Source: a virus
Length of the DNA stretch: 29,756 nt
Virus record (IMG/VR): IMGVR_UViG_3300048586_000321
Location: 1-29,756 of that record
Reading direction: 5' to 3' (one strand)
Shown: positions 6,324 to 27,776 of the stretch, in pieces
Numbering within the stretch: position 1 is the stretch's first letter
Layout of the letters: every line of letters begins with the position of its first letter
Position numbers and translations under genes: made by a program
The notes under the pieces: model-generated
Database searches by the model: none
What the model was told of the DNA's origin: nothing
What the model saw: the letters and a program-made list of their open reading frames with translations, nothing else

Positions 6324-6345
6324 GGGCGCCGATGACGAGGCGCCC
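6324..6345 (+). promoter_or_regulatory. Leader hairpin with GATGACGA loop
   Basis: GGGCGCC (6324-6330) and GGCGCCC (6339-6345) form a 7-bp stem around loop GATGACGA. It is one of five such leader hairpins (others at 9245, 17563, 18610 and 27757) whose stems differ in sequence but keep pairing, and whose loop always holds ATGACG. The right arm ends 19 bases before ATG 6365. Confidence 0.7.
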
Positions 6346-6349
6346 CCAT

Positions 6350-6358
6350 CCCAGGAGG
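6350..6358 (+). repeat. Start-associated CCCCAGGAG box (representative copy)
   Basis: CCCAGGAGG before ATG 6365. Exact CCCCAGGAG copies lie at 9266, 10214, 11435, 12644, 14763, 17590, 18637, 19878, 21881, 22706 and 27782, with close variants at 5761 and 15443, each about 7-15 bases before a start codon. AGGAG is a normal ribosome binding core; the fixed CCCC on its 5' side is not explained by pairing with 16S rRNA. Confidence 0.85.
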
Positions 6359-6364
6359 ACCACC

Positions 6365-7924
6365 ATGGCCGACGCCATCCCCACCGAGCTCGTCGACGAC
6401 GCGCTCACCCCCGAGCTCCCCGAGCCCGAGCTCACCGCCAAGCCCATCACCGCCGAGGTCGTCGAGCCCGACCCGCCGGCCGCCACCGGCGTCGAGCCCG
6501 CCGCCACCGCCGCGGCCGCCCCCGGGCTCGACGTCCGCAACATCGACGGCGCCAAGCTCATCCCCGGCACCGAGCTCCCCATCGTCCCCGAGGCGGCCGA
6601 GCTCGCCGGGCTCGCTCAACTTGCGGTCACCCTCTCGGCGGCCGCCATCGTCCCCGCCGCCCTCCGCGGCAAGCCCAACGACGTCCTCCTCGTGCTCCTC
6701 TCCGCCCGAGACCTCGGCGTCGCCATCACGACGGCGCTTCGCGAGTTCCACGTCATCGACGGCAAGGTCACGCTCTCGCCCAAGGTCAAGCTCGCGCTCG
6801 TCCGCCAGTCCGGGCTAGGGCGCATCTACCCGCACCAGCCCCCGCGCACCGTCACCGTCCGAGGCCGCGAGCGCCGGGTCCTCTGCCCATGCGGTCAGGA
6901 GGACGGGCCCAACGACCACCTCGGCGCCATCTGGCACGCCGAGCGCGCCGACGAGCCCGGCATCTTGCACTCGTCGCGGTTCACCGCCGAGGACGCCGCC
7001 CGGCCCACGGGCTGCAACGCCCTCACCGGCAAGGACAATTGGCAGAACTACCCGCAACGCATGATGTCGTGGCGGGCCCTCGGCTACCTCCTCGATGACG
7101 TGTTCCCCGAGGTCGGCACCGGGCTCTACTCGCCCGACGAGCTCGGCGCCGTCACCGACGACGAGGGCGAGCCCATCATCGACGTCGTCGGCTCGGCCGC
7201 GCCGCTCTCCGGCATGAGCGCACCCCGCGGCCACAACCGCCCGGCGCCCGAGCCCGAGCCCGCCGCCACCGAGGAGGAGCTCACGGCGCTCCGGGCCCGC
7301 ATCGACGCCCTCCCCGCCGGCGGCCGCGCCGCGCTGCGCGACCTCTGGACCCGCACCCCCGAGGACGGTGGGCCGCCCTCGCTCCCGCCGCTCGGCAAGC
7401 TCTCGGCGCGCCAGCTTCCCAAGGCCGACGCCATGGTCAAGAGCATCGAGCTCCGGGCCGGCCGAGGCGAGTGGGCCGACGAGGCGCCCCAGGACGCCCA
7501 GGAGCCCCAGGAGGGCCCGGAGGCGGCCGCCGAGGAGCTCCCGGCCACCGACGGGCCCCAGGACGTCGACGACGCCCAGGACGACCCGCCGATCATCGAC
7601 CCGGCCACCACCGACGGCCCCGCCATCCCCGCCGAGCACCGAGACCCCGACGAGGACGTCGACGCCGGCCCGCCCACCCGGCCCAGCATCACCGCCGACG
7701 TCACGGCGCTCGACCTCCGGGTCGTCCGCCGCGAGCTCGCCGACCGAGGGCTCCGCGCCGCCGCCGGCCCACCCGCCTACCTGCGCGCCGTGCTCGCCGC
7801 CGACCTCATGGCCGAGCACGAGCTCGCCACCGAGGTCGAGGTCGCCGAGCTCGACGGCATCCGCACCGCCACCATCGAGCTCGACGCCGCCGACGCCCAG
7901 GACGCCGGCGAGGCTCGGCCGTGA
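6365..7924 (+). CDS. RecT-like single-strand annealing protein with long acidic tail
   Basis: A 519-residue protein. Residues 80-265 look like a RecT/Bet-family core: SAAAIVPAALRGKPNDVLLV, DLGVAITTALREFHVIDGK, LSPKVKLALVR, then NWQNYPQRMMSWRALGYLLD and the FPEVGTGLYSPDEL ending. Such proteins anneal complementary single strands during phage recombination and repair. A CPCGQE insertion sits inside the core near residue 175. The C-terminal 250 residues are acidic and Pro/Ala-rich with low complexity, far longer than usual, ending in a small folded segment. I choose ATG 6365 because a CCCAGGAGG box lies seven bases upstream; an in-frame ATG at 6332 falls in the leader hairpin loop and would add eleven residues. 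GTGA overlap with the next gene. Confidence 0.85.
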   Translation: MADAIPTELVDDALTPELPEPELTAKPITAEVVEPDPPAATGVEPAATAAAAPGLDVRNIDGAKLIPGTELPIVPEAAELAGLAQLAVTLSAAAIVPAALRGKPNDVLLVLLSARDLGVAITTALREFHVIDGKVTLSPKVKLALVRQSGLGRIYPHQPPRTVTVRGRERRVLCPCGQEDGPNDHLGAIWHAERADEPGILHSSRFTAEDAARPTGCNALTGKDNWQNYPQRMMSWRALGYLLDDVFPEVGTGLYSPDELGAVTDDEGEPIIDVVGSAAPLSGMSAPRGHNRPAPEPEPAATEEELTALRARIDALPAGGRAALRDLWTRTPEDGGPPSLPPLGKLSARQLPKADAMVKSIELRAGRGEWADEAPQDAQEPQEGPEAAAEELPATDGPQDVDDAQDDPPIIDPATTDGPAIPAEHRDPDEDVDAGPPTRPSITADVTALDLRVVRRELADRGLRAAAGPPAYLRAVLAADLMAEHELATEVEVAELDGIRTATIELDAADAQDAGEARP

Positions 7925-8205
7925 CCGCGCCCGCCCGGCTCCCCATCGGGCCGCTCCTCGACTACATCGAGCGCCGCTACGGCCCGCTCCGCATCAACGT
8001 CACAGACCCCGACCTCGTGCTCTCGGCGCTCACCTACGACGACGTCGCCGCCATCCTCGGCGTCAACCGCGACAGCCTGGGCCGCTGGGTCCGGCGCGGG
8101 TGGCTCGACGAGCTCGTCGCCGAGCGCATCGCCCTCGACCTCGTCGGGCATCCCTCGATCCTCTGGCGCGCCGAGTACGCCGAGCTCGCCGCCGCCGTCG
8201 CATGA
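7921..8205 (+). CDS. Helix-turn-helix DNA-binding protein
   Basis: A 94-residue protein starting at GTG, overlapping the RecT-like stop (GTGA). LTYDDVAAILGVNRDSLGRWVRRGWL is a clear helix-turn-helix with the DVAAILGV and SLGRWVRRG helices. The end, AERIALDLVGHPSILWRAEY, matches the short conserved unit (A..lG.HPs.iW) found in many actinophage HTH proteins. It lies immediately before the iteron region at 8275-8548, so it is a candidate for binding those repeats as a replication initiator or regulator. That link is inference from position. Confidence 0.8.
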   Translation: MTAPARLPIGPLLDYIERRYGPLRINVTDPDLVLSALTYDDVAAILGVNRDSLGRWVRRGWLDELVAERIALDLVGHPSILWRAEYAELAAAVA

Positions 8206-8274
8206 GGTCGAGCTCGGGCCGCCGCCATCACCAACGCCGGCCCGAGCTCGCCGCCGAGCGTAGGCGCCGCTCCT

Positions 8275-8402
8275 CCCCAGGCTGGGGACAACCCTGGGGA
8301 GAACGGCGGCCGCCGGCTGGGGACGATCCTGGGGGAGACCTGGGGACGACCGGGCCCTCCTCCACAGGCCCGGCCACCGGCGCCGACCTCCTGGGGAGAA
8401 CC
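8275..8402 (+). repeat. Iteron array (CTGGGGA-type), candidate replication origin
   Basis: Six direct copies of a 12-base unit of the type CTGGGGACRACC start at 8282, 8294, 8317, 8329, 8340 and 8391, and inverted CCCCAG copies lie at 8275 and 8479. The reverse complement of the best copy contains TTGTCCCCA, one base from the actinobacterial DnaA box TTGTCCACA. The whole gap 8206-8540 has no gene and is the longest non-coding stretch of the window. It lies between recombination genes, a common place for a phage origin. A regulatory operator array is the main alternative. Confidence 0.6.
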
Positions 8403-8434
8403 GCCTCCGCCATCCCCATCGTCATCAACACCCG

Positions 8435-8548
8435 TTGTGGACAGAAAACCCGGCGCCACCTGGGCCCCGGCCGCTCCTCCCCAGGTTCCACAGCCCCCAC
8501 CACTACCCCCGCTCATCTACATCAAGATCCGAGGTCCACAGTGGACAA
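8435..8548 (+). other. DnaA-box-like sites beside the iterons
   Basis: TGTGGACAG (8436-8444) and AGTGGACAA (8540-8548) each differ by one base from TGTGGACAA, the reverse complement of the TTGTCCACA box of high-GC actinobacteria. Weaker TCCACA sites lie at 8361 and 8487. GTCCACAGTGGAC (8534-8546) is a perfect palindrome around one base and includes the GTG start codon of the next gene, so a protein bound there would block its expression. Confidence 0.5.
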
Positions 8549-9230
8549 CGACACCCCGCCCACCATCCCCGCCGCCGGCCGGCCCACCGTGCTCGCCATC
8601 GACCCCGGCGGCAAAGAGACCGGGCTCGCCGCCATCACCGTCGCCGGCGCCGCCGACCCCGAGCTCCTCGCCGCCGCCGTCCTCGACCGCGGCGCCCCGT
8701 GCTCGGCCGCCCACGGCTACGAGCTCGACGCCTGGGCCGAGGCCAACGTCGCCGCGGTCGCCCGCCTCCTCGTCGAGCTCGACCACCGGCCGACCGCGTC
8801 CGCCCGCCGCCAGCTTGACGACGTCCTCGCCGGCCACCTCCCGCACGGCATCACGCTCGCCATCGAGAACGTCCGCTCGCCCAACCCGCACCGCCGGCGC
8901 GCCGACGGCAACGCCCTCACCAACCCCGACGGCATCCTCGCTACCGCATGGGTCGCCGGCGCCATCGCCGCCCGGTGGCCCGGCATCGTCATCGTCGAGC
9001 CCGCCGCCCATGGTCAAGGCCCGCCCGCCGCGTACCCGCCGGCGATCACCTACAAGGTCAACCTCAAGCGCAAAGGCCCGCCCGCCGACCGGCTCCGCCA
9101 CGCCCGCGCCGCCTACGACGTCGCCCGGGCCGCCCGGTGGGCCCTGCCCCGGTTCCACCCCGAGGCCCAGCGCGCCGCCCGCATCATCGAGCCCACCCTC
9201 TACCGGGCCGCCGTCACCGCCACCCGCTAA
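8541..9230 (+). CDS. RuvC-like Holliday junction resolvase
   Basis: A 229-residue protein from GTG. It has an RNase H-fold resolvase pattern: LAIDPGGKETGLAAI with Asp21 at the end of strand one, LAIENV with Glu109, and a late helix RHARAAYDVARAA with His188 and Asp194, matching the D-E-D/H metal-binding set of RuvC. It would cut recombination or replication junctions before packaging. The start codon lies in a 13-base palindrome; no Shine-Dalgarno sequence or leaderless -10 box is evident, so the exact start is less sure than the product. Its TAA stop forms part of the next promoter's -10 box. Confidence 0.8.
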   Translation: MDNDTPPTIPAAGRPTVLAIDPGGKETGLAAITVAGAADPELLAAAVLDRGAPCSAAHGYELDAWAEANVAAVARLLVELDHRPTASARRQLDDVLAGHLPHGITLAIENVRSPNPHRRRADGNALTNPDGILATAWVAGAIAARWPGIVIVEPAAHGQGPPAAYPPAITYKVNLKRKGPPADRLRHARAAYDVARAARWALPRFHPEAQRAARIIEPTLYRAAVTATR

Positions 9231-9233
9231 CCT
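9228..9233 (+). promoter_or_regulatory. -10 box overlapping the RuvC-like stop codon
   Basis: TAACCT uses the TAA stop codon as its first three bases. It is followed by CACCGCCTAGCG and the leader hairpin at 9245, the same order as at the RecT-like gene (TACCCT, GTCCGCCTAGCG, hairpin). No -35 seen. Confidence 0.55.
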
Positions 9234-9244
9234 CACCGCCTAGC

Positions 9245-9260
9245 GGCCGATGACGCGGCC
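9245..9260 (+). promoter_or_regulatory. Leader hairpin with ATGACG loop
   Basis: GGCCG (9245-9249) pairs with CGGCC (9256-9260) around loop ATGACG. This is the shortest stem of the five. Its right arm ends 19 bases before the TTG start, exactly as at the RecT-like gene, and a CCCCAGGAG box follows. Confidence 0.65.
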
Positions 9261-9279
9261 CTCGACCCCAGGAGACCCC

Positions 9280-9837
9280 TTGACCCGCCTGCTCATCATC
9301 AACCCCGAGCCCGTGCTCACCGACGAGGAGCGCCGGCTCATCGCGTCGCCGCACCTCGACCGCATCCCCGGCACCCTCGCCCACGGCTGGGCCCTCGGGT
9401 GCTCCCGCCTCGCCGGCGATGTCGTCGACGTCGTCACCGACCGCGAGCTCCGCGGGCTCCGCATGGCGCTCGGCCGCTCCGGGCTCCACCCCCGCCCCGA
9501 CCCCGCCATCCCCGGCCGCTGGGTCATCGTCGGCACCATCGCCCCCGCCATCAACCCGCTCGACGCCGCCGACCCGTCCGCCGCCGGCATCGGGCTCCCC
9601 GTGCGGCTCTCCCGGCTCGTCCCGCCCGGCAAAGCCATCGTCGTCGACCTCGCCCACCTCACCGACGACGAGCGGAGCGGCTACCTCGGCGCCGCCACCG
9701 TCCCCGTCTACCCCTCCGGCACCATCGGCTACGCCACCCTCGACCGGGCCCGCTTCGACCTCGACGCCCTCCTCGCCGCCCGCTACTCGCTCGCCGCCGC
9801 CCAGCCCGCCACGCTCATCCGGGCGGCCGGAGCATGA
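9280..9837 (+). CDS. Protein of unknown function
   Basis: 185 residues from TTG 9280, chosen because CCCCAGGAG ends five bases upstream; an in-frame ATG at 9250 lies in the hairpin loop and would give 195 residues. I recognise no family. The protein mixes helices and short strands; a stretch VPPGKAIVVDLA resembles VPGKAIVVELA in the product of 17606-18166. It is the first gene of a coupled run reaching to 14010 that starts from its own promoter, and it overlaps the next gene by ATGA. Confidence 0.75.
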   Translation: MTRLLIINPEPVLTDEERRLIASPHLDRIPGTLAHGWALGCSRLAGDVVDVVTDRELRGLRMALGRSGLHPRPDPAIPGRWVIVGTIAPAINPLDAADPSAAGIGLPVRLSRLVPPGKAIVVDLAHLTDDERSGYLGAATVPVYPSGTIGYATLDRARFDLDALLAARYSLAAAQPATLIRAAGA

Positions 9838-10226
9838 GCGCCCCCCGCCGAGCCCGCCGCCGCGAGGACCGGGCCATGCGCCGCGCCGGCATCACCCCGG
9901 TCACGCTCCCCACCGCCGCCGAGGTCGAGGAGCGCAAGGCCCAGGCCGCCACCCGCGACGCCCTCCGCGGCGCCGTCATCGCCTGGGCCGCCGCCACCCC
10001 CGCCACCGACCTCATCGCCAACCTCGACGTCGGCAAGGCCAACGGCGCCGGCTACGAGCTCGACCGCGACGACCTCAACGTCATCGACGGCGCCAGCGGC
10101 GAGGCCACCCCCATCGCCGGCATCCCCACCCTCACCACCCCCACCATCATCCGGGTCGACGCGCTCACGCCGTCGGGCCACCCCATCACCGTCGCCATCA
10201 CCGCGACCATCACCCCCAGGAGCTAG
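9834..10226 (+). CDS. Protein of unknown function with basic N-terminus
   Basis: 130 residues, coupled to the previous gene by ATGA. The N-terminus is strongly basic (APRRARRREDRAMRRAG), followed by a charged helix (AAEVEERKAQAATRDALRG) and a Thr/Ile-rich C-terminus that looks like beta strands. The basic start suggests contact with nucleic acid, but there is no recognisable fold. Confidence 0.7.
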   Translation: MSAPRRARRREDRAMRRAGITPVTLPTAAEVEERKAQAATRDALRGAVIAWAAATPATDLIANLDVGKANGAGYELDRDDLNVIDGASGEATPIAGIPTLTTPTIIRVDALTPSGHPITVAITATITPRS

Positions 10227-10232
10227 AGCCCC

Positions 10233-11120
10233 ATGACCACCCGCTACGACACCGCCGCCCGCGTCCTTCGCGACGCCGCCGACGCCCGCACCCGGGCCGC
10301 CCGCCGGGCCGCCGGCGTGCTCACCGAGGAGCTCGCTACCGGCGAGGAGTCCGACCCCCGCAAGGGCGCCGTCGCCATCTACCGCATGCTCGCCGAGGCC
10401 GACGAGCTCGTCCTCGTCGCCGACGAGCTCGACGCCCAGGCCACCACCGTCGCCGGCGACCCGTCCGCCGCCGCGGCCGCCGACCCGCCGGCGCCCACCA
10501 CCGACGCCGAGCTCGGCGACGACGCCACCGACGCCGAGCTCGCCCGCCTCGACGCCAAGGCCGTCGTCCGCTGGGTCACCGCGCACCCCGGCCACGCCGC
10601 CCGGGTCCGCACCATCGAGGACGCCCGCACCAAGCCCCGCGCCACCGTGCTCAAGGTCCTCGACACCATCGCCCCGCCGGCCACCGACCCCGCCCCGGTC
10701 GACGAGCTCGCCGAGGCCCGAGCCCGCGCCGCCGGCGTCATCGACGCCATCGACGCCGACCCCAGCCTCGACGCCGAGGGCGCCCTCGACGCCGCCGAGG
10801 ACGCCCTCGACCCCGACGCCCCGCCCATGCTCGCCGACCCCGAGCCCCCGACCGCCGAGCACCCGCTCACCGGCGCCACCGACGAGGACGACCCCACCGA
10901 CGAGGACCTCGTCGACGCCGAGCTCGCCCTCGCCGGCGCCCCCAGCCTCGCCGAGCTCCGCACCATGACCACCGAGGAGCTCATCGCCATCGCCGACGGC
11001 ACCGACCTCGGCGCCACCCCCGACACCGGCAAGGGCCCCGAGCTCCCCGGCGGCACCACCCCGCCGGCGCTCGTCGACGCCGCCGCCGCCATCGTCGCCG
11101 ACCGCATGACCCCCGCATGA
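10233..11120 (+). CDS. Acidic Ala/Asp-rich protein of unknown function
   Basis: 295 residues, with CCCCAGGAG ten bases before ATG. The N-terminal 70 residues are helical (AARVLRDAADARTRAARRAAG; YRMLAEADELVLVADELDAQ). The rest is acidic and low in complexity, rich in Ala, Asp, Glu and Pro, with repeated DAELxxDATDAELA-type units. No catalytic motif is seen. A scaffold-like or nucleic-acid-mimicking acidic protein is possible but unproven. Ends in an ATGA overlap with the XRE regulator. Confidence 0.75.
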   Translation: MTTRYDTAARVLRDAADARTRAARRAAGVLTEELATGEESDPRKGAVAIYRMLAEADELVLVADELDAQATTVAGDPSAAAAADPPAPTTDAELGDDATDAELARLDAKAVVRWVTAHPGHAARVRTIEDARTKPRATVLKVLDTIAPPATDPAPVDELAEARARAAGVIDAIDADPSLDAEGALDAAEDALDPDAPPMLADPEPPTAEHPLTGATDEDDPTDEDLVDAELALAGAPSLAELRTMTTEELIAIADGTDLGATPDTGKGPELPGGTTPPALVDAAAAIVADRMTPA

Positions 11121-11455
11121 GCCCCACCGCCCGCACCGCCCTCGCCGCCCAGGTCGGCGCCATCCTCGCCCGCCACCGAGGCGACGAGCCCCGCCGCGAG
11201 CTCGCCCGCCGCCTCGGCGTCGCCGACGTCACCCTCGTCGACGTCGAGCGCGGCACCGTCAACCCCACCCTCGCCCGCGTCGAGGCCCTCGCCGGCCAGT
11301 ACGGCGCCCGCCTCGCCATCGTCGACGTCGACGAGCTCATCGAGGAGGTCGACCTCATCCTCCGCGGCAAGCTCGGCGTCCCCGCCCGGGTCCGCCGCAA
11401 CATCACCACCCGCCTCACCACCTACATCACCGCACCCCAGGAGCCCCAGCCATGA
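11117..11455 (+). CDS. XRE-family helix-turn-helix protein
   Basis: 112 residues, coupled by ATGA to both neighbours. Residues 25-62 form a Cro/cI-type HTH: RRELARRLGVADVTLVDVERGTVNPTLARVEALAGQYG, with the typical LA..LGV...TL...E.G..NPTL..v..la pattern. The C-terminal half (DELIEEVDLILRGKLGVPARVRRNI) is helical. It may regulate its own operon or act at the operator-like palindrome 8534-8546; neither is shown. It is inside an operon and not divergent from a partner, so a lysogeny switch is not evident. Confidence 0.8.
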   Translation: MSPTARTALAAQVGAILARHRGDEPRRELARRLGVADVTLVDVERGTVNPTLARVEALAGQYGARLAIVDVDELIEEVDLILRGKLGVPARVRRNITTRLTTYITAPQEPQP

Positions 11456-12225
11456 CCATCAACCCCGACCCCAACCTCCTCGCCGACGTCCTCGCCTGCT
11501 ACCGGGCCGCCGACGACCTCGACGACCACGAGCGCGCCGTCGCCCGCCTCGACGCCGCCGACCGGCTCGCCGACGCCGTCGAGCTCCTCCTCGACCTCGA
11601 CGCCCACGCCCGAGAGCTCAACCCACCGCCCGCCGCCGGCGTCGAGGTCCCCACCTCGGTCGCCCACCTCCTCGACGCCATCACCAACCTCGTCGACCCG
11701 CCCCCAGCCAACGACGGCGCCCTCTGCGCGCCCACCTGGGCCACCAACGACGAGCGCATCCCCGAGCTCGACCGATGCCGCGACCTCATCGAGCACCTCA
11801 CCGACTACGCCGGCCACGCCCTCACCGCCCCGCTCGACGCCGCCATCACCGACCTCGGCGGCCGCACCATCGAGCACCGAGACCGCGTCGTCGACCTCGA
11901 CGACACCAACCGCGTCCTCGCCCTCGACGTCGCCCACCGCAACCGCATCCTCCGGGCCCTCATCCCCGTCCTCGCCCGCCTCGGCGCCGTGCTCGTCACC
12001 GCCGACGCCGCCAAGACCCGCGCCGAGACCGAGGCCGCCGAGCTCGCCGAGGTCATCCGCCGCATCCCCGAGCCCAAGCCCGGCCACCCCGCCACCAAGC
12101 CCCTCACCCACCGGCAGGCCACCGCCCTCGTCCGCGAGGCCCGAGACCGCGCCGCCACCGAGGCCGCCGAGCTCATCCGGCTCACCGACCTCGACGAGCT
12201 CCTCGACCTCCGCGTCGAGCTCTAG
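11452..12225 (+). CDS. Helical protein of unknown function
   Basis: 257 residues, ATGA-coupled to the XRE gene and also preceded by CCCCAGGAG. It is almost wholly helical with many Leu/Ala/Asp, and the C-terminal third has charged coiled-coil-like stretches (TRAETEAAELAEVIRRI; REARDRAATEAAELIRL). Two cysteines lie near residue 90 to 110. No motif of known function. Confidence 0.72.
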   Translation: MTINPDPNLLADVLACYRAADDLDDHERAVARLDAADRLADAVELLLDLDAHARELNPPPAAGVEVPTSVAHLLDAITNLVDPPPANDGALCAPTWATNDERIPELDRCRDLIEHLTDYAGHALTAPLDAAITDLGGRTIEHRDRVVDLDDTNRVLALDVAHRNRILRALIPVLARLGAVLVTADAAKTRAETEAAELAEVIRRIPEPKPGHPATKPLTHRQATALVREARDRAATEAAELIRLTDLDELLDLRVEL

Positions 12226-12234
12226 GCGGCCACG

Positions 12235-12663
12235 GTGGGCGAGTGGACCCTCGACAAGCGGTACGGCCGCCAAGGCGGCCGCCGAGCACCCGGCGCCGGC
12301 ACCGGGCCCAGCATGGCCGAGCTCCGCGACCGCCACGCCGCAACGTGGCCCTACGGCGCCGCCACCGCCTCACCGTTCCACCCCGACGAGCAAGCCCGCC
12401 GCCGCACGCAAGACGAGTACCTCGCCGCCACGTTCCCCGGGTGCACGCGCAAGGCCCTCACCGACCGCCAACGCGCCGAGGTCGCCGCCGTCCCCGCCAG
12501 CACCGCCAACACCGCCGAGGCGTGGGGCGCCCGGGCCCGCATGGCGGACGCCCGACGCGCCGCCGGCGCCCACCTCGACGACGTCGACATCGAGGCGCTC
12601 CGCCGCTACCCCACCCCGCCCCGCATCCCCATCACCAACACCGCCCCAGGAGGCACCCCATGA
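12235..12663 (+). CDS. Protein of unknown function
   Basis: 142 residues from GTG 12235, nine bases after the previous stop. The N-terminus is basic and Gly-rich (TLDKRYGRQGGRRAPGAG), the middle helical and charged. No Shine-Dalgarno box stands out, so the start could be slightly different; the frame itself is supported by codon use and by the ATGA overlap at its end. Confidence 0.65.
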   Translation: MGEWTLDKRYGRQGGRRAPGAGTGPSMAELRDRHAATWPYGAATASPFHPDEQARRRTQDEYLAATFPGCTRKALTDRQRAEVAAVPASTANTAEAWGARARMADARRAAGAHLDDVDIEALRRYPTPPRIPITNTAPGGTP

Positions 12664-12914
12664 GCAACCCCAAGCGCCCGCACACCGCCGCCGACAAGAC
12701 GGTCGGCGTGTTCGCCGCCGCCGCCGTCATCGCCCTCGGCTACGGGCTCATCGCCGTCGCCATCGTCGCCGGCGTCATCGCCGTCGGCGCGTTCGGCTAC
12801 TCGCTCGCCGAGTACCGCCGCGACGAGCGCGACCGGACCGCCATGCGCGGCGCCGCCGACCGCGCCGCCAACGGAGGCCCCGCCGCCACGAGCCACGAGG
12901 ACGGCCCCCGATGA
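12660..12914 (+). CDS. Small membrane protein
   Basis: 84 residues, preceded by CCCCAGGAG and overlapping its neighbour by ATGA. One long hydrophobic region covers about residues 15-48 (VGVFAAAAVIALGYGLIAVA, then IVAGVIAVGAFGYSLAEY), long enough for a hairpin of two membrane helices, followed by a charged tail with RRDERDR facing the cytoplasm. Function unknown. Confidence 0.75.
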   Translation: MSNPKRPHTAADKTVGVFAAAAVIALGYGLIAVAIVAGVIAVGAFGYSLAEYRRDERDRTAMRGAADRAANGGPAATSHEDGPR

Positions 12915-13429
12915 TCGACGACCCCATCCTCAACCCGCCCACCGACCCCGCCGGCCGCCGCCTCGGCCCAGCCTCCGGCATCACCCCCGACCACCTCGGC
13001 ACCCCCGGCTACGAGTGGCTCGACGCCCTCGGTGTCGTCGTCGCGTCCATCACCATCGTCGGCGACCGCCGCCTCGACGACGGCACCGTCACCCCCGTCC
13101 CCCAGGTCGTCGCCGCCGCGCTCCTCGACGCCGTCGGCGACCTCATCGCCAAGGGCGACCTCCCGCTCGGCCCCGTCAAGGCCGCCGCCGCCGGCGAGGA
13201 CGAGCCCCTCAAGCTCGCCGCCCTCCTCAACGCCATCGGCACATGCCACGACCCCCGATGCGACTACGACCACGCCCACGAGCTCGCCGAGGTCCGCGCC
13301 GGCATCGAGAGCTCCGCCGAGCCCCTCGTCATGGTGGGCCAAGTGGTCACCCTCCCCGGGCGCGCCGGGCCCGGCATCCTCCTCGGCGGCGAGCTCTACG
13401 CCAAGCGGCCACCCGGAGGCGGCGCATGA
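12911..13429 (+). CDS. Protein of unknown function, possible metal site
   Basis: 172 residues, coupled by ATGA on both sides. It contains GTCHDPRCDYDHAHELAEV, where Cys-x4-Cys and His-x-His could bind a metal. The first 40 residues are Pro-rich and the end is Gly-rich (KRPPGGGA). No family recognised. Confidence 0.7.
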   Translation: MIDDPILNPPTDPAGRRLGPASGITPDHLGTPGYEWLDALGVVVASITIVGDRRLDDGTVTPVPQVVAAALLDAVGDLIAKGDLPLGPVKAAAAGEDEPLKLAALLNAIGTCHDPRCDYDHAHELAEVRAGIESSAEPLVMVGQVVTLPGRAGPGILLGGELYAKRPPGGGA

Positions 13430-14010
13430 TCCCCGCCGGCGTCGACGCCCACGACGGGCCCAAGGGCTCCGCCGACCTCTCAACCGACGGCCGCTACCGC
13501 TACGAGCTCCGCCGCAACCTCCTCGGCAACCCACCCCACCGCCGGCGCGCCGTCGCCGTCATGCTCAACCCCTCGACCGCCGACCACGAGCGCAACGACC
13601 TCACCATCACCAAGCTCCTCGGGTTCGGCTCTCGCTGGGGCGCCACCGAGCTCATCGTCGTCAACCTGTTCGCCTACCGGGCCACCGACCCCGACGACCT
13701 CGCCCTCGCCCACCGGGCCGGCACCGACATCGTCGGCCCCTACGACGACGCCTACGTCGCCGGCGCCCTCTCGCTCGCCGCCGACGGTCTCGCCGTCGCC
13801 GCATGGGGAGGACGACCCAAGGCGCTCCCCGCCGAGCTCTACTACCGGCGCATCGAGGAGGTCGTCGACCTCGCCCGACGCCTCGACCGGCCCCTCACCT
13901 CGCTCGGCACCACCAAGCGCGGCGACCCCCGCCACCCCTCCCGCCTTGCCTACGACACCGAGCTCACGCCCTGGGCCCCGGTCGTCGACGACCACCCCGG
14001 CGCGTCGTAG
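13426..14010 (+). CDS. DUF1643 family protein
   Basis: 194 residues. The sequence carries the DUF1643 pattern: RYRYELRRNL near the start, VAVMLNPSTADHERNDLTIT, then FGSRWGATELIVVNLFAYRATDPDDL and the later AAWGG. The family is common in phages and bacteria and is of unknown biochemical role. It overlaps the previous gene by ATGA and closes the coupled run that starts at 9280; its TAG stop doubles as the first half of the -10 box for the small terminase gene. Confidence 0.85.
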   Translation: MIPAGVDAHDGPKGSADLSTDGRYRYELRRNLLGNPPHRRRAVAVMLNPSTADHERNDLTITKLLGFGSRWGATELIVVNLFAYRATDPDDLALAHRAGTDIVGPYDDAYVAGALSLAADGLAVAAWGGRPKALPAELYYRRIEEVVDLARRLDRPLTSLGTTKRGDPRHPSRLAYDTELTPWAPVVDDHPGAS

Positions 14011-14013
14011 CAT
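14008..14013 (+). promoter_or_regulatory. Leaderless promoter of the small terminase gene
   Basis: TAGCAT starts with the TAG stop of the DUF1643 gene and is followed by six bases and ATG 14020. No Shine-Dalgarno sequence fits in the nine-base gap. A weak -35 (TCGACG, 13985-13990) lies 17 bases upstream. Confidence 0.65.
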
Positions 14014-14019
14014 CCGGCC

Positions 14020-14760
14020 ATGGCCCAGCGCGGCAAGCCCAACCCCAAGCCCAAGGGCAAGCGGTACACCGACGCCGACCGGGCGCGCGCCGTCGAGGTC
14101 CTCAAGGCCGACGGGCTCACCGCCGCCGCCAAGGCCATCGGGTGCGCCAAGGCCACCGTCCTCGCCTGGGCCAAGGCCGCCGACGTCGACCCCAGCGACT
14201 ACGCCGACCGTTCGACTGACCAAAACACGCGGGCCGCCGTCGCCGCCGTCGCCGCCCGCCGGGCCACCATGGTCAAGAACCGCGCCGCCCTCTCGGACGA
14301 GCTCATCGGCAAGCTCGCCCCCAAGGCCGCCGCCCTCATCGCCGACCGGCTCGACGAGGAGGCCCGCTACGCCGAGCTCATCGCCGAGGCCGAGGAGCGG
14401 CTAGAGCTCGCCGTCATCGGGCTCCTCGCGTGCGGCGACCCGCCCGAGGACGCCGACGTCGACACCCGCAAGACGTTCGCCGAGGCCCGCAAGACCGCCC
14501 GGGCCGCGGTCGCCGACGCCCGGCTCATCCTCGACGCCTACCGGTCGGGCCGGGTCAAGGTCCCCGAGCTCGTCGGCGTGCTCACCCGGTCGGTCACCGA
14601 CCACCTCGCGCTAGAGGGCGAGGCCCAGGACGCGGCCGCGGCGTCGGGCTCGTTCGCCGTCACCATCACCGCCCCGCGGCCGCCTCGTCGTGCGCCGGCG
14701 CCGGGCGTCGTCACGCTCGACCCGGTCGCCGACCCGGGCGTCCCCACCGTCACCACCTAG
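14020..14760 (+). CDS. terS: Terminase small subunit candidate
   Basis: 246 residues. The N-terminus is basic (RGKPNPKPKGKRYT), followed by a transposase-type HTH (DADRARAVEVLKADGLTAAAKAIG, then CAKATVLAWAKAA). The middle is long and helical (about residues 85-200), with a Pro-rich end. A HTH plus a helical oligomerisation region is the usual layout of small terminase subunits, which recognise phage DNA and hand it to the large subunit. The large subunit gene lies 1 kb downstream. A regulator with the same HTH type is the alternative. Three Leu-Glu pairs are coded CTA GAG or avoided. Leaderless promoter. Confidence 0.7.
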   Translation: MAQRGKPNPKPKGKRYTDADRARAVEVLKADGLTAAAKAIGCAKATVLAWAKAADVDPSDYADRSTDQNTRAAVAAVAARRATMVKNRAALSDELIGKLAPKAAALIADRLDEEARYAELIAEAEERLELAVIGLLACGDPPEDADVDTRKTFAEARKTARAAVADARLILDAYRSGRVKVPELVGVLTRSVTDHLALEGEAQDAAAASGSFAVTITAPRPPRRAPAPGVVTLDPVADPGVPTVTT

Positions 14761-14778
14761 AGCCCCAGGAGGCCCAGC

Positions 14779-15048
14779 ATGCCCACCAAGAACGCCGGCA
14801 CCGCCGTCGTCACCCCCGAGGTCCTCGACGCCGAGGTCCCGTTCACCTACGGGCCCGACGTCGACGAGCTCCGCGAGCGCCGCCACCGGGCCCGGGCCGC
14901 CAAGGTCGCCGGCAACGACCGGGCCCCATGGGAGCGCGGCACCCGCACCGAGGTCGACGCCGCGCTCGGCGATGTCGCCGACGCCAACCGCCGGGCCCGG
15001 GTCGTCCGCCCCACCCGCCGCACCGGAGGCGGAGCTCGACGCCGATGA
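14779..15048 (+). CDS. Small charged protein of unknown function
   Basis: 89 residues, with CCCCAGGAG seven bases before ATG. Helical, rich in Arg and Asp, and ending in a basic tail (RPTRRTGGGARRR). It overlaps the next gene by ATGA. No family recognised; the basic end suggests nucleic-acid contact. Confidence 0.7.
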   Translation: MPTKNAGTAVVTPEVLDAEVPFTYGPDVDELRERRHRARAAKVAGNDRAPWERGTRTEVDAALGDVADANRRARVVRPTRRTGGGARRR

Positions 15049-15412: not shown

Positions 15413-15460
15413 CACCGGCGCAACGGCACCACCACCACCACCGCCCAGGAGGGCCCCGCC

Positions 15461-17547: not shown

Positions 17548-17553
17548 TAGTCT
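17548..17553 (+). promoter_or_regulatory. Extended -10 promoter
   Basis: TAGTCT preceded by TGC (TGTGCTAGTCT), an extended -10 like the one at 6307. No -35. Upstream, 17524-17539 is an exact copy of 23371-23386. Transcription should begin near 17560, just before the leader hairpin. Confidence 0.65.
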
Positions 17554-17562: not shown

Positions 17563-17583
17563 GCGGGCCGATGACGGGCCCGC
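17563..17583 (+). promoter_or_regulatory. Leader hairpin with GATGACG loop
   Basis: GCGGGCC (17563-17569) pairs with GGCCCGC (17577-17583) around loop GATGACG. A CCCCAGGAG box follows at 17590. The ATG of the loop opens a 12-codon frame whose TGA overlaps the ATG at 17606, so a coupled leader peptide is possible here. Confidence 0.7.
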
Positions 17584-17605
17584 CCAACGCCCCAGGAGGC
17601 ACCCC

Positions 17606-18166
17606 ATGACCACCAACCCCTACGCCATCGGCGACCGCGTCACCGCCGGCCGAGGCACCAACACCTACGAGGTCGTCGAGGTCTCGGGCGGCAACGTCGT
17701 CGTCGAGAACGTCAACGACCGCGGCGTCCGCTACACCCTCGGCGCCCGCGACGTCCGGCCCACCAACACCCGCCACGGCGACCCCCTCGCCCTGTTCCCC
17801 ATCATCGACGCCCAGGTCCCCGGCAAGGCCATCGTCGTCGAGCTCGCCACCGACACCCCCGAGGGCGCGGCCCCGTGCTACCTCGTCATCGAGCGGGCCG
17901 ACGGCGCCTACGACACCATCGTCGAGCGGTCCTACATCGCCGGCGCCGCCATCGCCAAGGCCATCGCCCTCGCCGGCTGGGCCAAGGCCGTCGTCCCCGA
18001 GGTCGTCGGCGACGAGGAGCTCGGCCGCGAGCTCGCCGACCTCATCGTCACGACCACGGGCCGGGCGGCCGCCCAGCCCCAGCGCCGGGCCATCATCGAG
18101 CGCCACGTCACCCGCTGGGACGCCGAGGCCATCGACCTCGCCGACGCCGAGGAGGCGGGCGCTTGA
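17606..18166 (+). CDS. Unknown protein with KOW/SH3-like N-terminus
   Basis: 186 residues, with CCCCAGGAG seven bases before ATG. The N-terminus YAIGDRVTAGRGTNTYEVVEVSGGNVVVENV has the GDxV start and alternating strands of a small SH3/KOW barrel. The middle has VPGKAIVVELA, similar to a stretch in the 9280 product, and the C-terminus is helical. It heads the accessory run between terminase and portal and overlaps the next gene by TTGA. Confidence 0.75.
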   Translation: MTTNPYAIGDRVTAGRGTNTYEVVEVSGGNVVVENVNDRGVRYTLGARDVRPTNTRHGDPLALFPIIDAQVPGKAIVVELATDTPEGAAPCYLVIERADGAYDTIVERSYIAGAAIAKAIALAGWAKAVVPEVVGDEELGRELADLIVTTTGRAAAQPQRRAIIERHVTRWDAEAIDLADAEEAGA

Positions 18167-18596: not shown

Positions 18597-18602
18597 TAGC
18601 AT
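18597..18602 (+). promoter_or_regulatory. -10 box before 18657
   Basis: TAGCAT ends seven bases before the leader hairpin, so the transcript should begin at or next to the hairpin's first base. GTGGCA (18573-18578) is a weak -35 at 18 bases. Confidence 0.55.
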
Positions 18603-18609: not shown

Positions 18610-18631
18610 GGGCCCGCATGACGGCGAGCCC
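18610..18631 (+). promoter_or_regulatory. Leader hairpin with ATGACG loop
   Basis: GGGCCCGC (18610-18617) pairs with GCGAGCCC (18624-18631) at seven of eight positions around loop ATGACG. A CCCCAGGAG box follows at 18637. The loop ATG is in frame with the gene start 39 bases later. Confidence 0.65.
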
Positions 18632-18656
18632 CGACACCCCAGGAGACACCAACCCC

Positions 18657-19124
18657 ATGAGCACCACCACCACGCCCGCCAAGTTCTACCGGCTCCCCGC
18701 CGAGGAGCGCACCCGCACCGCCGAGGCCCGCACCGGCACCTACGTCACCGCCGTCGTCGACTACCGAGGCAACGGGCCGCACGAGCGGTACACCGGCGAG
18801 CTCGTCACCGTCGCCATCACCAACACCGGCACCACCTCGGCCGAGGCCATCATCCGCATCCCCAACCCGCGCAAGCGGGCCCGGGCTATCTCGCTCGCCA
18901 CCATCACCGAGCTCCGCCCGGCCACCAACGGCGAGCTCCTCGCCGCCGGCATGCTCGACGTCGTCGAGGGCCGCCGGCTCGTCGAGCGCGTCGCCATTGT
19001 CCGCGAGGCCCAGGCCCTCGGCGCCATCGACGAGCCCACCGCCGTCGCCATCCGAGAGCTCGCCGACGAGCTCGTCGAGGCCCAGGTCCGGGCCGCCCAC
19101 CGCGCGGCCGGAGCGGTCCGATGA
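18657..19124 (+). CDS. Protein of unknown function
   Basis: 155 residues from ATG 18657, chosen over the in-frame loop ATG 18618 because CCCCAGGAG lies eleven bases upstream. The first half is beta-rich (GTYVTAVVDYRGNG, YTGELVTVAITNTG, AEAIIRIPN) and the second half helical (EPTAVAIRELADELVEAQVRAAH). No family recognised. Overlaps the next gene by ATGA. Confidence 0.75.
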   Translation: MSTTTTPAKFYRLPAEERTRTAEARTGTYVTAVVDYRGNGPHERYTGELVTVAITNTGTTSAEAIIRIPNPRKRARAISLATITELRPATNGELLAAGMLDVVEGRRLVERVAIVREAQALGAIDEPTAVAIRELADELVEAQVRAAHRAAGAVR

Positions 19125-19279
19125 GCGCACACTCGGGCGCGTGTCGCTCGACCGAGCCCTCGGGGCTCGGCACCCGTTGGGCGTGCTCGCTCCCCACCGG
19201 TCACAAGGGCCCGCACAAGGCCAAGCTCCCCGGCGGCACCGTCGTCAAGACGTGGGCCCGCAAGGGCGGCCGGCGATGA
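19121..19279 (+). CDS. Small Cys/His protein
   Basis: 52 residues, with ATGA overlaps at both ends. Cys8, Cys22, His28 and His32 are arranged as C-x13-C-x5-H-x3-H in CRSTEPSGLGTRWACSLPTG followed by HKGPHKAK; the CxLPxGHxGxH element recurs in short actinobacterial and phage proteins and may bind zinc. The end is basic (TWARKGGRR). Very short, but the tight coupling and codon use make it convincing. Confidence 0.75.
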   Translation: MSAHSGACRSTEPSGLGTRWACSLPTGHKGPHKAKLPGGTVVKTWARKGGRR

Positions 19280-19389
19280 GCGGCACCGTGCTCGCCTACG
19301 CCACCGGCGCCGACCTCTACGGCGCCCTCGCCCTCCTCGCCGGGTCCGCCATCATCGGGCTCGCCGCCGTGCTGGGCCGACGCCCATGA
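19276..19389 (+). CDS. 37-residue membrane miniprotein
   Basis: Coupled by ATGA on both sides. Residues 12-34 (DLYGALALLAGSAIIGLAAVL) form one membrane helix followed by GRRP, a positive cytoplasmic end. It has no recognisable family. Its place in a tightly overlapped run argues that it is a real gene. Confidence 0.65.
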   Translation: MSGTVLAYATGADLYGALALLAGSAIIGLAAVLGRRP

Positions 19390-22723: not shown

Positions 22724-23320
22724 ATGACCAGCACCCCAGCCCCCACCGAGCTCATCCCCGACCCCGGCCGGCGCCGCCTCCGCCTCGCCTGCCCCGACGG
22801 CGACCTCACGAGCATCATGCCCCGGGCCAACGCCGACCGGCTCGCGGCCCGCACCGGCGCCGACCTCGACGACCTCAACGACGTCGAGGTCGCCGAGTGC
22901 GTCGCCCTCGCCATCGAGGTCGCCGCCGCCCAGGCCGCCGGCGCACCCGCCGACGTCGAGCTCGTCACGGTCCGCCCGGTCGTCCTCCCGCCCATCGAGG
23001 ACGGCGCCGACCCCGAGGTCGTCGTCGCCGGCGTCATCGCCCTCGGCATCTACGGCGCCACCTCGGGCGAGCTCCTCGCCGCCGCCACCATTGACGCCCG
23101 GGCGGCCCTCGACGTCTACGTCCGAGGCTCGGCCGACCACCGAGGCCCCGAGCTCTCGCTCGACCTCGACGACGAGCGGTTCGCCGAGCTCGTCGGCGAG
23201 CTCATGGTCCGGCTCATCGTCCGGCCCGCCGGCGCCGCCAGCCTCGCCGGCCGCATGCTCCGCGTCGCCGCCGGCGACGAGCTCGCCACCTCGGTCGCCG
23301 AGGAGCTCGCCCGCCGATAG
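22724..23320 (+). CDS. Protein of unknown function
   Basis: 198 residues from ATG 22724, nine bases after CCCCAGGAG. An in-frame ATG at 22685 overlaps the previous stop (ATGA) and would add 13 residues; I prefer the start with the box. It is mixed alpha/beta and acidic: an N-terminal strand region (RRRLRLACPDGDLTSIM), a helix with DDLNDVEVAECVALAIEVAA, and a helical C-terminus (ERFAELVGELMVRLIV). No family recognised. It is the last gene before a hairpin terminator. Confidence 0.7.
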   Translation: MTSTPAPTELIPDPGRRRLRLACPDGDLTSIMPRANADRLAARTGADLDDLNDVEVAECVALAIEVAAAQAAGAPADVELVTVRPVVLPPIEDGADPEVVVAGVIALGIYGATSGELLAAATIDARAALDVYVRGSADHRGPELSLDLDDERFAELVGELMVRLIVRPAGAASLAGRMLRVAAGDELATSVAEELARR

Positions 23321-23345
23321 CCCCACCCCACCTAGCACCCCACCA

Positions 23346-23379
23346 CGGGCCCGGCCGACACCCTCCTCGGCCGGGCCCG
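23346..23379 (+). terminator. Perfect 13-bp hairpin upstream of the portal gene
   Basis: CGGGCCCGGCCGA (23346-23358) and TCGGCCGGGCCCG (23367-23379) form a perfect 13-bp stem with an 8-base loop. No T tract follows. It lies 25 bases after the last accessory gene and 10 bases before the portal -10 box, so it probably ends the upstream transcript and separates it from the head operon. Its right arm occupies the -35 position of that promoter. Confidence 0.7.
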
Positions 23380-23389
23380 CTCGCGCCCC

Positions 23390-23395
23390 TACCAT
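23390..23395 (+). promoter_or_regulatory. Leaderless promoter of the portal gene
   Basis: TACCAT lies seven bases before ATG 23403, with no Shine-Dalgarno sequence between. The -35 region is inside the terminator hairpin arm and has no consensus. Confidence 0.65.
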
Positions 23396-23402
23396 GGCGC
23401 CC

Positions 23403-25082
23403 ATGCCACCCCTCGCGCCGCCCCCGACCAACGAGCTCGGCGCCCCCGGCATCGTGTCGTTCGCCGGCTACGTCGACACCTGGGAGGAGACCCCCGAGCT
23501 CCGGTTCCCGTTCGCCGTGCGCGTGTACGACCGCATGCGCCGCACCGACGCGCAGATCGACGCCGTCCTCCGGGCCGTCGACCTCCCCATCCGCCGGACC
23601 GGTTGGTCCCTCTCGACCGACGGCGTCGACCCCCGGGTCGCCGCGTTCGTCCGCGACGAGCTCGGGCTCGACCTCGACCGCACCGCCGCCGCCCGCCGCC
23701 GGCGCCGCCGTCAAGGCATCGTGTGGGCCGACGTCCTCCGGCATGCGCTCCTCGCCCGCCCGCTCGGATTCATGCCACTAGAGCAGGTCTACGAGGTCGG
23801 CCCGCCCGGGCCCGGGCAGGAGAGCTACGGGCTCCCCCGCCTCACCGCGCACGTCCGCAAGCTCGCCCCGCGCATGCCCCGGAGCGTCACCGCCATCGAC
23901 ATCGCCGACGACGGTGGGCTCACCGCCATCCGCCAGCACGTCGCCCGGCAGGACCGGCCCACCGATGAGGTCATCATCCCGGCCGACCGGCTCGTCATGT
24001 TCGTCAACGAGCGCGAGGGCGCCGACTGGACCGGCCGCTCCTGTCTCCGCTCGTCCTATGGGCATTGGCTCATCAAGACCCAACTACTCAAGCTCGGGCC
24101 CGTCATCGCCGAGCGCAACGGCATGGGCATCCCCGTCGTCACGTTCTCCAACGGGCAGGACCGCAACGAGGCCCTCGACATCGCCACCAAGCTCCGCGCC
24201 GGCGAGACCGCCGGCGTCGCGCTCCCCGAGGGCATGGCGCTCTCGCTCGTCGGCGTCGAGGGCTCGCTCCGCGACGAGCTCCCCCTCCTCAAGTACCACG
24301 ACGAGGCCATCGGCCGGGCCGCGCTCGCCATGGTCCTCAACCTGGGCCACGACAACGGCGCCCGCTCGCTCGGCGACACCTTCCTCGACCTGTTCCTCCT
24401 GTCCGAGCAAGCCACCATCGTCGACATCGAGGACACCGTCACCGAGTACGTCATCCGCGACCTCGTCGAGCTCAACTACGGCGAGGACGAGCCCTACCCG
24501 GTGCTCAAGGCCGACGAGCTCGCCGCCGACGCCGCCCCCACCGCCGAGGCCCTCAAGTCGCTCGCCGACGCCGGGCTCCTCGACGGCGACCCCGAGCTCA
24601 AGGCCGACGTCCGCCGCCGGTTCCGGCTCCCCGCCCCAGCGGTCGCCGACGCCCCCCAGGACGCCCCCACGCCGGCGCCGACCGACCCGGCCGGGCCCGA
24701 GCCCATCCGAGAGCTCCCCGCCGGCTCCGCCGCCCCCGGCATGACGGCCGACGAGCTCCTCAAGCTCGTCAACGCCGCCGCCGCGCTCATCCGCTCCGGG
24801 TTCTCCCCCGACAAGGCGCTCACCGCCGTCGGGCTCGACCCCATCGAGCACCTCGGGCTCCTCCCCGTCACCGTGCAGAAGCCCGAGCAACCCGTCGCCG
24901 GGCTCTCCGCCGCGTCCGAGCCCACCGCCCTCGACGTCGCCCGGGCGCTCGCATGGGCCACCGAGGCGCTCGCCACCCCGGCCCCGCCGGCGCGCATGAG
25001 CTCGCCCGCCGCCCGGGCCCAGCGCGCCGCCGAGCTCGCCGCCCGGGCCGCGGCGCTCGCCGGCGCCACCGTCGACGAGTAG
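23403..25082 (+). CDS. Portal protein, DUF935/Mu gp29-like
   Basis: 559 residues. The portal is the ring at the capsid vertex through which DNA enters. Features: ELRFPFAVRVYDRMRRTDAQIDAVLRAVDLPIRRTGWSL at the N-terminus is the typical start of portals that count off crown and stem; then MPLEQVY, the strand IIPADRLVMFVNEREGADWTGRSCLR, and the long helix NGMGIPVVTFSNG to TFLDLFLLSEQATI. The C-terminal 130 residues are Ala/Pro-rich, acidic and then Ala/Arg-rich, longer than usual. Gene order portal, Mu F-like, small genes, Mu I-like protease follows the Mu arrangement and supports the call. It starts from a leaderless promoter. Confidence 0.85.
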   Translation: MPPLAPPPTNELGAPGIVSFAGYVDTWEETPELRFPFAVRVYDRMRRTDAQIDAVLRAVDLPIRRTGWSLSTDGVDPRVAAFVRDELGLDLDRTAAARRRRRRQGIVWADVLRHALLARPLGFMPLEQVYEVGPPGPGQESYGLPRLTAHVRKLAPRMPRSVTAIDIADDGGLTAIRQHVARQDRPTDEVIIPADRLVMFVNEREGADWTGRSCLRSSYGHWLIKTQLLKLGPVIAERNGMGIPVVTFSNGQDRNEALDIATKLRAGETAGVALPEGMALSLVGVEGSLRDELPLLKYHDEAIGRAALAMVLNLGHDNGARSLGDTFLDLFLLSEQATIVDIEDTVTEYVIRDLVELNYGEDEPYPVLKADELAADAAPTAEALKSLADAGLLDGDPELKADVRRRFRLPAPAVADAPQDAPTPAPTDPAGPEPIRELPAGSAAPGMTADELLKLVNAAAALIRSGFSPDKALTAVGLDPIEHLGLLPVTVQKPEQPVAGLSAASEPTALDVARALAWATEALATPAPPARMSSPAARAQRAAELAARAAALAGATVDE

Positions 25083-27509: not shown

Positions 27510-27526
27510 GCGTCGGCGCCGGCCGG

Positions 27527-27532
27527 TAGCGT
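27527..27532 (+). promoter_or_regulatory. Leaderless promoter before 27540
   Basis: TAGCGT followed by seven bases and ATG 27540. GGCGCCGGCC (27515-27524) lies two bases upstream as at 15407 and 17405. No Shine-Dalgarno sequence. Confidence 0.65.
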
Positions 27533-27539
27533 CCGCGTC

Positions 27540-27734
27540 ATGGCAGACGACGACCCGCTCACCGAGACCACCGAGCTCGACACCCCGACCGCGCTGGGCT
27601 CGGTCAGGCTCGTCCGGTCCTACACCAACGACGACGGCGAACAGGTCCCCCGGTCCGAGGCGACGCGCTGGGTTGGCTGGGGCTACGACGCCGCCGGCGA
27701 GCTCGTCGAGACCGCACAAGGCCGCATCGGTTAG
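27540..27734 (+). CDS. Small acidic protein of unknown function
   Basis: 64 residues. Acidic start (ADDDPLTETTELD), a strand (GSVRLVRSYTNDDGEQVP) and an aromatic stretch (RWVGWGYDAAGELVE). It has no recognised family. It lies between the Mu F-like gene and the next promoter and has its own leaderless promoter; its TAG stop starts a TAGCCC repeat unit before that promoter. Confidence 0.65.
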   Translation: MADDDPLTETTELDTPTALGSVRLVRSYTNDDGEQVPRSEATRWVGWGYDAAGELVETAQGRIG

Positions 27735-27744
27735 CCCCAGCGGC

Positions 27745-27750
27745 TAGCAT
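27745..27750 (+). promoter_or_regulatory. -10 box before 27798
   Basis: TAGCAT ends six bases before the leader hairpin, so transcription should start on or beside its first base, as at 18597. No -35. Confidence 0.55.
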
Positions 27751-27756
27751 GCCGAC

Positions 27757-27776
27757 GGGCCCGATGACGCGGGCCC
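27757..27776 (+). promoter_or_regulatory. Leader hairpin with ATGACG loop
   Basis: GGGCCCG (27757-27763) pairs perfectly with CGGGCCC (27770-27776) around loop ATGACG. CCCCAGGAG follows at 27782. Here the loop ATG is out of frame with the gene and has no nearby stop, which argues that the loop is conserved as RNA and not as a start codon. Confidence 0.7.

Follow-up and report, generated by a model that had tools for sequence, protein, structure and literature searches.

Five short hairpins that precede genes in the 29,756-base virus record IMGVR_UViG_3300048586_000321 (the window, a complete record treated here as a phage fragment) are one repeated, promoter-linked leader element at the level of RNA, whose function we infer. 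At each site the hairpin lies between a promoter-like box and a ribosome site, the loop is constant, the stems differ yet remain internally complementary, and the arrangement recurs with a TGACG loop core in two further phages, G011 and G248. Covariation is found independently in the second phage (G011), and the third (G248) contributes further sites. We tentatively regard a leader element with a loop recognized by a sequence-specific trans-acting factor as the best explanation overall, because the loop stays constant on changing stems in three genomes.

Leader hairpins with a constant loop

All five leaders follow one order: a CTANNNT box, the hairpin, a spacer of 6-9 nt made up mostly of C and A, CAGGAG(G), and the start codon. 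On the plus strand, the first site has the box TACCCT (GCTACCCT), a putative -10 element, at 6307..6312, the hairpin GGGCGCC gatgacga GGCGCCC at 6324..6345 and the ribosome site CAGGAGG at 6352..6358. The corresponding elements are TAACCT (GCTAACCT; 9228..9233), GGCCG atgacg CGGCC (9245..9260) and CAGGAG (9269..9274) at the second site; TAGTCT (GCTAGTCT; 17548..17553), GCGGGCC gatgacg GGCCCGC (17563..17583, directly 3' of terL) and CAGGAGG (17593..17599) at the third; TAGCAT (CCTAGCAT; 18597..18602), GGGCCCGC atgacg GCGAGCCC (18610..18631, with one C-A mismatch) and CAGGAG (18640..18645) at the fourth; and TAGCAT (GCTAGCAT; 27745..27750), GGGCCCG atgacg CGGGCCC (27757..27776) and CAGGAGG (27785..27791) at the fifth. 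The box stands in the context GCTANNNT at four of the five sites and precedes the hairpins by 11, 11, 9, 7 and 6 nt, respectively; start codons follow the hairpins after 19, 19, 22, 25 and 21 nt. TTGAC is absent from the 60 nt upstream of each of the five hairpins, and Rfam gave no match at gathering score in the window.

The hairpins had been reported in a first-pass annotation made from the sequence alone, and their coordinates are confirmed, as are the spacing of 6-11 nt from box to hairpin and 19-25 nt from hairpin to start, and the single mismatch across all five stems. The sequence CCCCAGGAG, described there as lying between hairpin and start, is present at four sites; the first has ATCCCAGGAG. 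Likewise, the fixed ATGACG is found in all five loops, and only three have an unpaired loop of exactly those 6 nt, the loop being 8 nt (GATGACGA) at 6324 and 7 nt (GATGACG) at 17563.

Chance does not readily produce this arrangement. Of the seven plus-strand copies of ATGACG in the window, five fall inside these hairpins. When 6-mers enclosed by at least five pairs were sought in the five leaders and in 2000 dinucleotide shuffles of them, stem-enclosed ATGACG was common to all five real leaders, against a shuffle maximum of two leaders (11 of 2000). Over window positions at large, a stem of 5 is reached in 3.6% and a stem of 7 in 0.6%. The window has 11 leaders whose gap is 45 nt or longer; TGACG is stem-enclosed in five of these, a count attained by none of 100 shuffles. 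The stems, of 7, 5, 7, 8 and 7 positions as drawn, are specific to their own partners: 33 of 34 positions pair between own arms, against 64 of 124 after swapping, and the true order alone among 120 attains the observed pairing. For the four sites in one register, four of eight pairs have changed on both sides, a score attained in none of 500 shuffles; site 17563, whose register is offset by one, was for that reason excluded from this pair counting. When each presumed leader was folded together with 60 nt of coding sequence, the prediction contained the hairpin at three of the five sites, and other pairings won at 9245 and 18610. Because the TGAC in the middle of the loop would be unpaired, pairing alone probably does not account for the constancy of the loop.

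Recurrence in related phages

Leaders were scanned for hairpins without regard to the loop in 17 genomes or fragments, and a shared-loop test was applied to 22; both picked out G011, the 48-kb parent record of L239. A mixed set of sites was misaligned by MAFFT, and genomes were therefore counted apart. In its strict form (at least six pairs, box required) the loop-blind scan recovers three of the five window sites and three of the seven in G011, the others having come from the first-pass list and from wider settings. With wider loops allowed, GTGACGG forms the loop of hairpins in 7 of 27 G011 leaders, on both strands; under the loop limit of the shared-loop test the count is 6 of 27, reached in 0 of 100 shuffles. 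The left arms (CGGGT, GTGTGTTCGG, GGCGGG, CCCACCGGG, CCATTCGGG, GGGCAGGAC and CCGGGT) each have their own complement, two stems carry a mismatch, and the second (GTGTGTTCGG) has an additional A-A, A-A internal loop. Own pairing is 51 of 63 compared with 163 of 378 for swapped arms, and again only the true order, among 5040, attains it. Eight of nine pairs have changed on both sides, giving a covariation score of 0.677 against 0.171 in shuffles; none of 500 shuffles attained this score, and sliding the partner abolishes the covariation. A TANNNT box lies 5-18 nt upstream of six of the seven hairpins, with none at 3592. The TGACG at 46887 was dropped as not forming a hairpin (4 of 9 paired). Separately, the G011 leaders at 2620, 3202, 44600 and 45987 (L394, L396) carry a palindrome, GGTAGC(N)GCTACC, over the box, which is probably a repressor operator.

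Among 394 genomes of the Mobilicoccus class, TerL was matched at E <=1e-60 in two, the Mobilicoccus query genome itself and G248. The 42.7-kb contig of the latter has 26 leaders whose gap is 40 nt or longer, and three of them have TGACG(G)-loop hairpins: that at 34034 (CGGTTGGG atgacgg CCCGACCG, 8 pairs) is directly 3' of terL, like the third hairpin of the window, that at 41307 has 5 pairs and the loop ACTGACGG, and that at 25911 reads CCGGG TGACGG CCCGG. The leader at 42424 has a 7-bp stem around CGACGGA. A leader hairpin directly after terL is thus found in the window, in G248 and, by eye, in L001. A covariance model built on G011 places two of the three G248 sites as hits 2 and 3 in 42.9 kb (E 0.083 and 0.13); across 29 sources besides G011 its best match has E 0.13. 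TGACG is present in 5 of 27 Mobilicoccus and 3 of 17 Nakamurella-region leaders, and among these none was comparable by eye. G248 also has GGTACC-TGACA-GGTACC-like repeats in the place that matches the G011 box palindrome.

The first-pass annotation had read a changing stem around a constant loop as a functional RNA structure, and the seven copies in G011 and three in G248, with different and internally complementary stems, support this. The test it set, a search for further copies with compensatory changes in related phages, found them, with TGACG as the loop core.

Pattern searches of IMG/VR reached little further. Exact ATGACG followed by a ribosome site gave 74 hits, of which none passed a filter for box, stem and start; they included 11 places with stem and start, all lacking the box. 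A GTGACGG search gave 71 hits and three places kept, two of them in G011 and one without a box. The latter filter overlooked a genuine site in L462, whose leader is the one also present at G248 25911, probably owing to a low stem score in its register, and the ATGACG filter may therefore likewise have overlooked sites.

Other loops are found in the same setting. The phage G001 has two hairpins with the loop GGACG and the same layout (shared-loop test 28 of 100, not significant; the arm-swap test, at 2 of 2 orders, is uninformative), and L001 has a single GGACG hairpin with a 2x2 internal loop, seen by eye and without statistical support. In G005 the loop ACCGG recurs in three leaders (7 of 100, not significant); its stems are nearly identical (2 of 24 orders) and so display the layout without covariation. 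The leader before the recombination genes of Altadena (26239), by gene order the place of the first window hairpin, has a GACGG loop, and at the same place in Bolt007, Klevey, Prairie, Lilmac1015 and Bumble a predicted hairpin is kept with changed arms and loops. A tally of GACG (26 of 211 rows) was not used as a statistic, its rows including nested and repeated ones and 74 loci, together with loci below 55% GC, being left out.

Several recurrent loops were not counted as instances of the element. AACAA (Martha 5, Wyborn 0 and EastWest 0 of 100) is an arm of the operator-like TTGTTC...GAACAA, and its set has an own pairing of 43 of 78 compared with 409 of 936, attained in 69 of 20000 re-pairings. 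GCGGT in G002 (0 of 100) lies inside the palindrome ACCGCGGT, and CCCGG in Altadena (0 of 100) lies inside GC-rich stems.

Some neighboring repeats merit description in their own right. In Martha, EastWest and Wyborn (L153, L400, L401), TTGTTC..GAACAA repeats lie just 3' of promoter boxes and overlap leader hairpins. The operator-like palindrome ACCGCGGT is found in several of the G002 leaders at 2589, 35553, 36394 and 45214 (L069-L071; G002 coordinates). In the Arthrobacter phage Salgado (L473), leaders 8467, 30932 and 33561 have TTGRTTCATCAG in common, with a predicted GC-rich hairpin after it, and represent a further repeated leader type. On the minus strand of the G001 record, at 247, 2042, 13336 and 37769 (L066, L067), are leaderless-looking promoters consisting of TTGAC, about 17 nt, TACGGT or similar, and then AGGCCC (or AGGCCT) ATG, some of which carry an operator-like TAGGTTG..ACCTA repeat.

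Gene content and relatives

Genes called by our own gene caller run on the plus strand throughout the window. By similarity to annotated relatives, baseplate genes lie near its left end, terL at 15809-17386, the portal gene at 23403 and the capsid protease gene at 25095, and a scaffolding gene begins at its right end. The window TerL is 66% identical to that of L001, 64% to G001, 52% to G011 and G248, 51% to G005 and about 51% to those of Arthrobacter phages such as Altadena and Vibaki. The phage group is probably contractile-tailed, because Altadena and Vibaki have tail sheath genes with counterparts in G248 and G001; no sheath gene was seen in the window fragment itself.

The hairpins precede one RecT-like gene and four genes without a family match. 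The former, the first gene of unit 1, encodes a RecT-like single-stranded DNA annealing protein (6365..7924, plus strand; PHROG 561, E 2e-24). The others, also on the plus strand, are at 9280..9837 (TTG start, from our own gene caller), 17606..18166 (after terL), 18657..19124 and 27798..28238 (between the capsid protease and scaffolding genes), three of the four being situated between terL and the scaffolding gene. Apart from the RecT-like gene, for which G006 has a 27% match, the first genes behind the hairpins have no counterpart in 11 compared phage sets. A search with the RecT-like protein found two relatives in viral contigs, the better 51% identical (L064), and none in genomes; the proteins at 9280 and 25095 found no relatives as queries.

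TAGCCCC occurs six times in the window (606, 18584, 21316, 21590, 23318 and 27732), five times at a gene stop codon, and the copies at 18584, 21590 and 27732 extend as CCCCANNGNCTAGCNT, which has the look of a promoter motif. In the portal leader (23318-23403), box-like TAGCCCC..TAGCACC repeats are followed by a 13-bp hairpin, the same layout with another hairpin.

Interpretation and alternatives

A mechanism can be proposed in which the hairpin would form the 5' end of the mRNA, beginning at about the expected transcription start, so that the stem would close this end and present the loop. A factor reading the constant loop could then load onto every transcript so marked, as at lambda N/boxB or the LoaP hairpin, and once bound might target RNA polymerase, decay or the ribosome. 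Were the factor phage-coded, the loop versions particular to each genome would be explained. A bolder formulation, which is possible and rather doubtful, is that one group of actinophages tags selected transcripts at the 5' end with a hairpin and uses its loop (UGACG, perhaps also GGACG and ACCGG) as a code word specific to the phage, which an RNA-binding factor encoded by the phage would read. This would be an actinobacterial counterpart of boxB and N that in addition caps the 5' end and moves as a ready-made cassette of promoter and leader ahead of inserted gene modules.

A number of observations weigh against a loop-read leader element. The core common to the window, G011 and G248 comprises only five bases (TGACG) and was spotted post hoc. 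The G248 hairpin at 25911 scores best in a register with the loop GACG and one pair more, and the G248 leader at 29505, before the counterpart of the gene behind the G011 hairpin at 17808, is without the loop. The top G248 hit of the G011 model is not a leader; the best-placed window site ranks only 26th of 127 hits of that model (11.3 bits, E 2.2), and two of the five are missing from these hits altogether. Values of 0 of 100 in the shared-loop test were also obtained for G002, Altadena, EastWest and Wyborn, from motifs that we read as operators or GC-rich stems. The leader of the window portal gene (23403) has a 13-bp hairpin with a different loop. A simple scan of 5800-19300, a region with four of the five sites, detected neither a consensus sigma-70 promoter nor an intrinsic terminator. 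As for the reader, NusG (PF02357) and CsrA were each found in none of nine phage records, the NusG control being positive in 10 of 14 and the window being a fragment; a search for the ANTAR family carries no information, its control having been silent.

The alternative that best survives, a lesser though genuine possibility, is that a plain 5'-terminal stem-loop shields the mRNA from 5'-end-dependent decay, the adjacent ribosome covering the rest and the loop being incidental or inherited. Messages can be stabilized by a hairpin, by a ribosome site or by a bound protein located at their 5' end or close to it (PMC3997798), and at all five sites the hairpin begins 6-11 nt after the box and stops 6-9 nt short of the ribosome site. 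Related Arthrobacter phages also have hairpins without a fixed loop in hand-picked leaders; an all-leader scan found them more sparsely, in 3 of 22 leaders of Altadena (0.10 expected), 2 of 26 of Vibaki (0.80 expected) and 0 of 23 of Abba. Simple protection, however, leaves unexplained a constant loop on different stems at five, seven and three sites of three genomes, and the report that RNase E sensitivity in M. smegmatis is uncorrelated with predicted structure near 5' ends also counts against it (PMC10641625).

The site could instead be one of antitermination proper, similar to boxB, put or LoaP, at which the hairpin would alter RNA polymerase and let it pass the terminators of the unit; this would be a special case of the loop-read element, and we consider it unlikely. 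One promoter-proximal hairpin with a fixed loop heads several units, and there is a precedent in LoaP, which binds a UNCG-type leader hairpin and requires it for antitermination (PMC12691694). The simple scan, which does not cover Rho-dependent terminators, found no terminator-like site in 5800-19300 and therefore nothing visible there for antitermination; moreover, the NusG family is missing from the nine records, and no boxA-like element was noticed by eye in the five leaders, where a host boxA may differ.

An insulator, in which the hairpin would prevent base pairing between the GC-rich 5' end and the ribosome site, seems improbable. Native predicted accessibility of the ribosome site is above the scrambled mean at all five window sites, and at 17606 none of 60 scrambles attains it. 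Over 18 sites in four phages (two of whose hairpins, G011 2620 and G005 28924, were cut off-register), however, native exceeds scrambled at only 10, with means of 0.548 and 0.540 and a value of 0.575 when the hairpin is deleted, and an insulator offers no reason for a fixed loop. The first-pass suggestion that the hairpin might gate translation fares no better, given that 6-9 nt separate the ribosome site from the hairpin and that scrambling barely shifts mean predicted accessibility in these 18 sites.

Equally little probability attaches to a DNA element, with a repressor or a phage sigma factor binding an operator or a cruciform. Palindromic operator-like repeats over the box do exist, as with GGTAGC...GCTACC in G011, but what is kept in the hairpins is complementarity within each site; because the arms differ between sites, the only duplex sequence in common is the loop of 6-7 nt, which is not palindromic. 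Least credible is a short leader peptide or alternative start at the AUG ACG of the loop: at three of the five sites this AUG shares the reading frame of the gene, and that at 17571 would open a 12-codon ORF ending in ATGA, but it is out of frame at two, there is scant room upstream for a ribosome site, and the loops of G011 (GUGACGG), G001 and L001 (GGACG) contain no AUG. Cleavage by RNase III was set aside, stems of 5-8 bp seeming too short.

Comparison with known systems

Post-initiation control is little known in phages of high-GC Gram-positive hosts, and a leader element read through its loop would provide a small, testable handle: a single loop on many stems in several phages. A reader protein, should there be one, would represent a new RNA-protein pair and might serve actinobacteria as a portable tag or as an expression part; if there is none, the fixed loop still demands an explanation beyond mRNA stabilization. 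In either case the element aids the annotation of transcription units in such phages. Such leaders are unreported in the literature as judged by titles and the openings of abstracts, a coverage outside which most subscription papers fall, and the main text of a survey of 46 Arthrobacter phages (PMC5513430) contains none of the terms hairpin, stem-loop, promoter or intergenic.

Among the known systems, ANTAR-target RNAs of actinobacteria likewise have hexanucleotide loops in stem-loops near starts; these comprise two stem-loops whose loops have A1 and G4 (PMC8164766), whereas here there is a single hairpin, with A as the fourth base of ATGACG. The start-associated sequence (SAS) and extended start-associated sequence (ESAS) of cluster K mycobacteriophages are also repeated start-associated elements before some actinophage genes. 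SAS has the conserved 13-bp sequence GGGATAGGAGCCC at the start, ESAS consists of 17-bp inverted repeats with a consensus, and the ESAS of Adephagia contains a putative promoter (PMC3203893, PMC11373665). In the window the arms vary, the loop is fixed, the element is 3' of the box and the ribosome region reads CCCCAGGAG or ATCCCAGGAG, and comparison with those descriptions agrees with the first-pass view of a loose parallel only.

Stabilizing 5'-terminal stem-loops share a stem at the presumed 5' end adjoining the ribosome site, and a constant loop across genes does not form part of their description in the available text (PMC3997798). LoaP and the dfn leader share a leader hairpin, which in their case is bound by a processive factor, and differ by a UNCG-type loop, a long terminator-bearing leader and a NusG paralogue (PMC12691694). 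The hairpins described here do not have a UNCG loop, and PF02357 is found in none of the nine records.

In bacteriophage lambda, N reads boxB, a small promoter-proximal RNA hairpin that occurs more than once per genome, whose loop matters and which has phage-specific versions among the lambdoid phages. The leaders described here differ in having five, seven and three copies, in carrying the hairpin at the presumed 5' end with the ribosome site next to it, and in their loop; no boxA was noticed by eye, and an N-like protein, for which no search was made, was not identified. The likeness lies in a small promoter-proximal hairpin, present in multiple copies per genome, with a loop that appears to matter and with versions particular to each phage.

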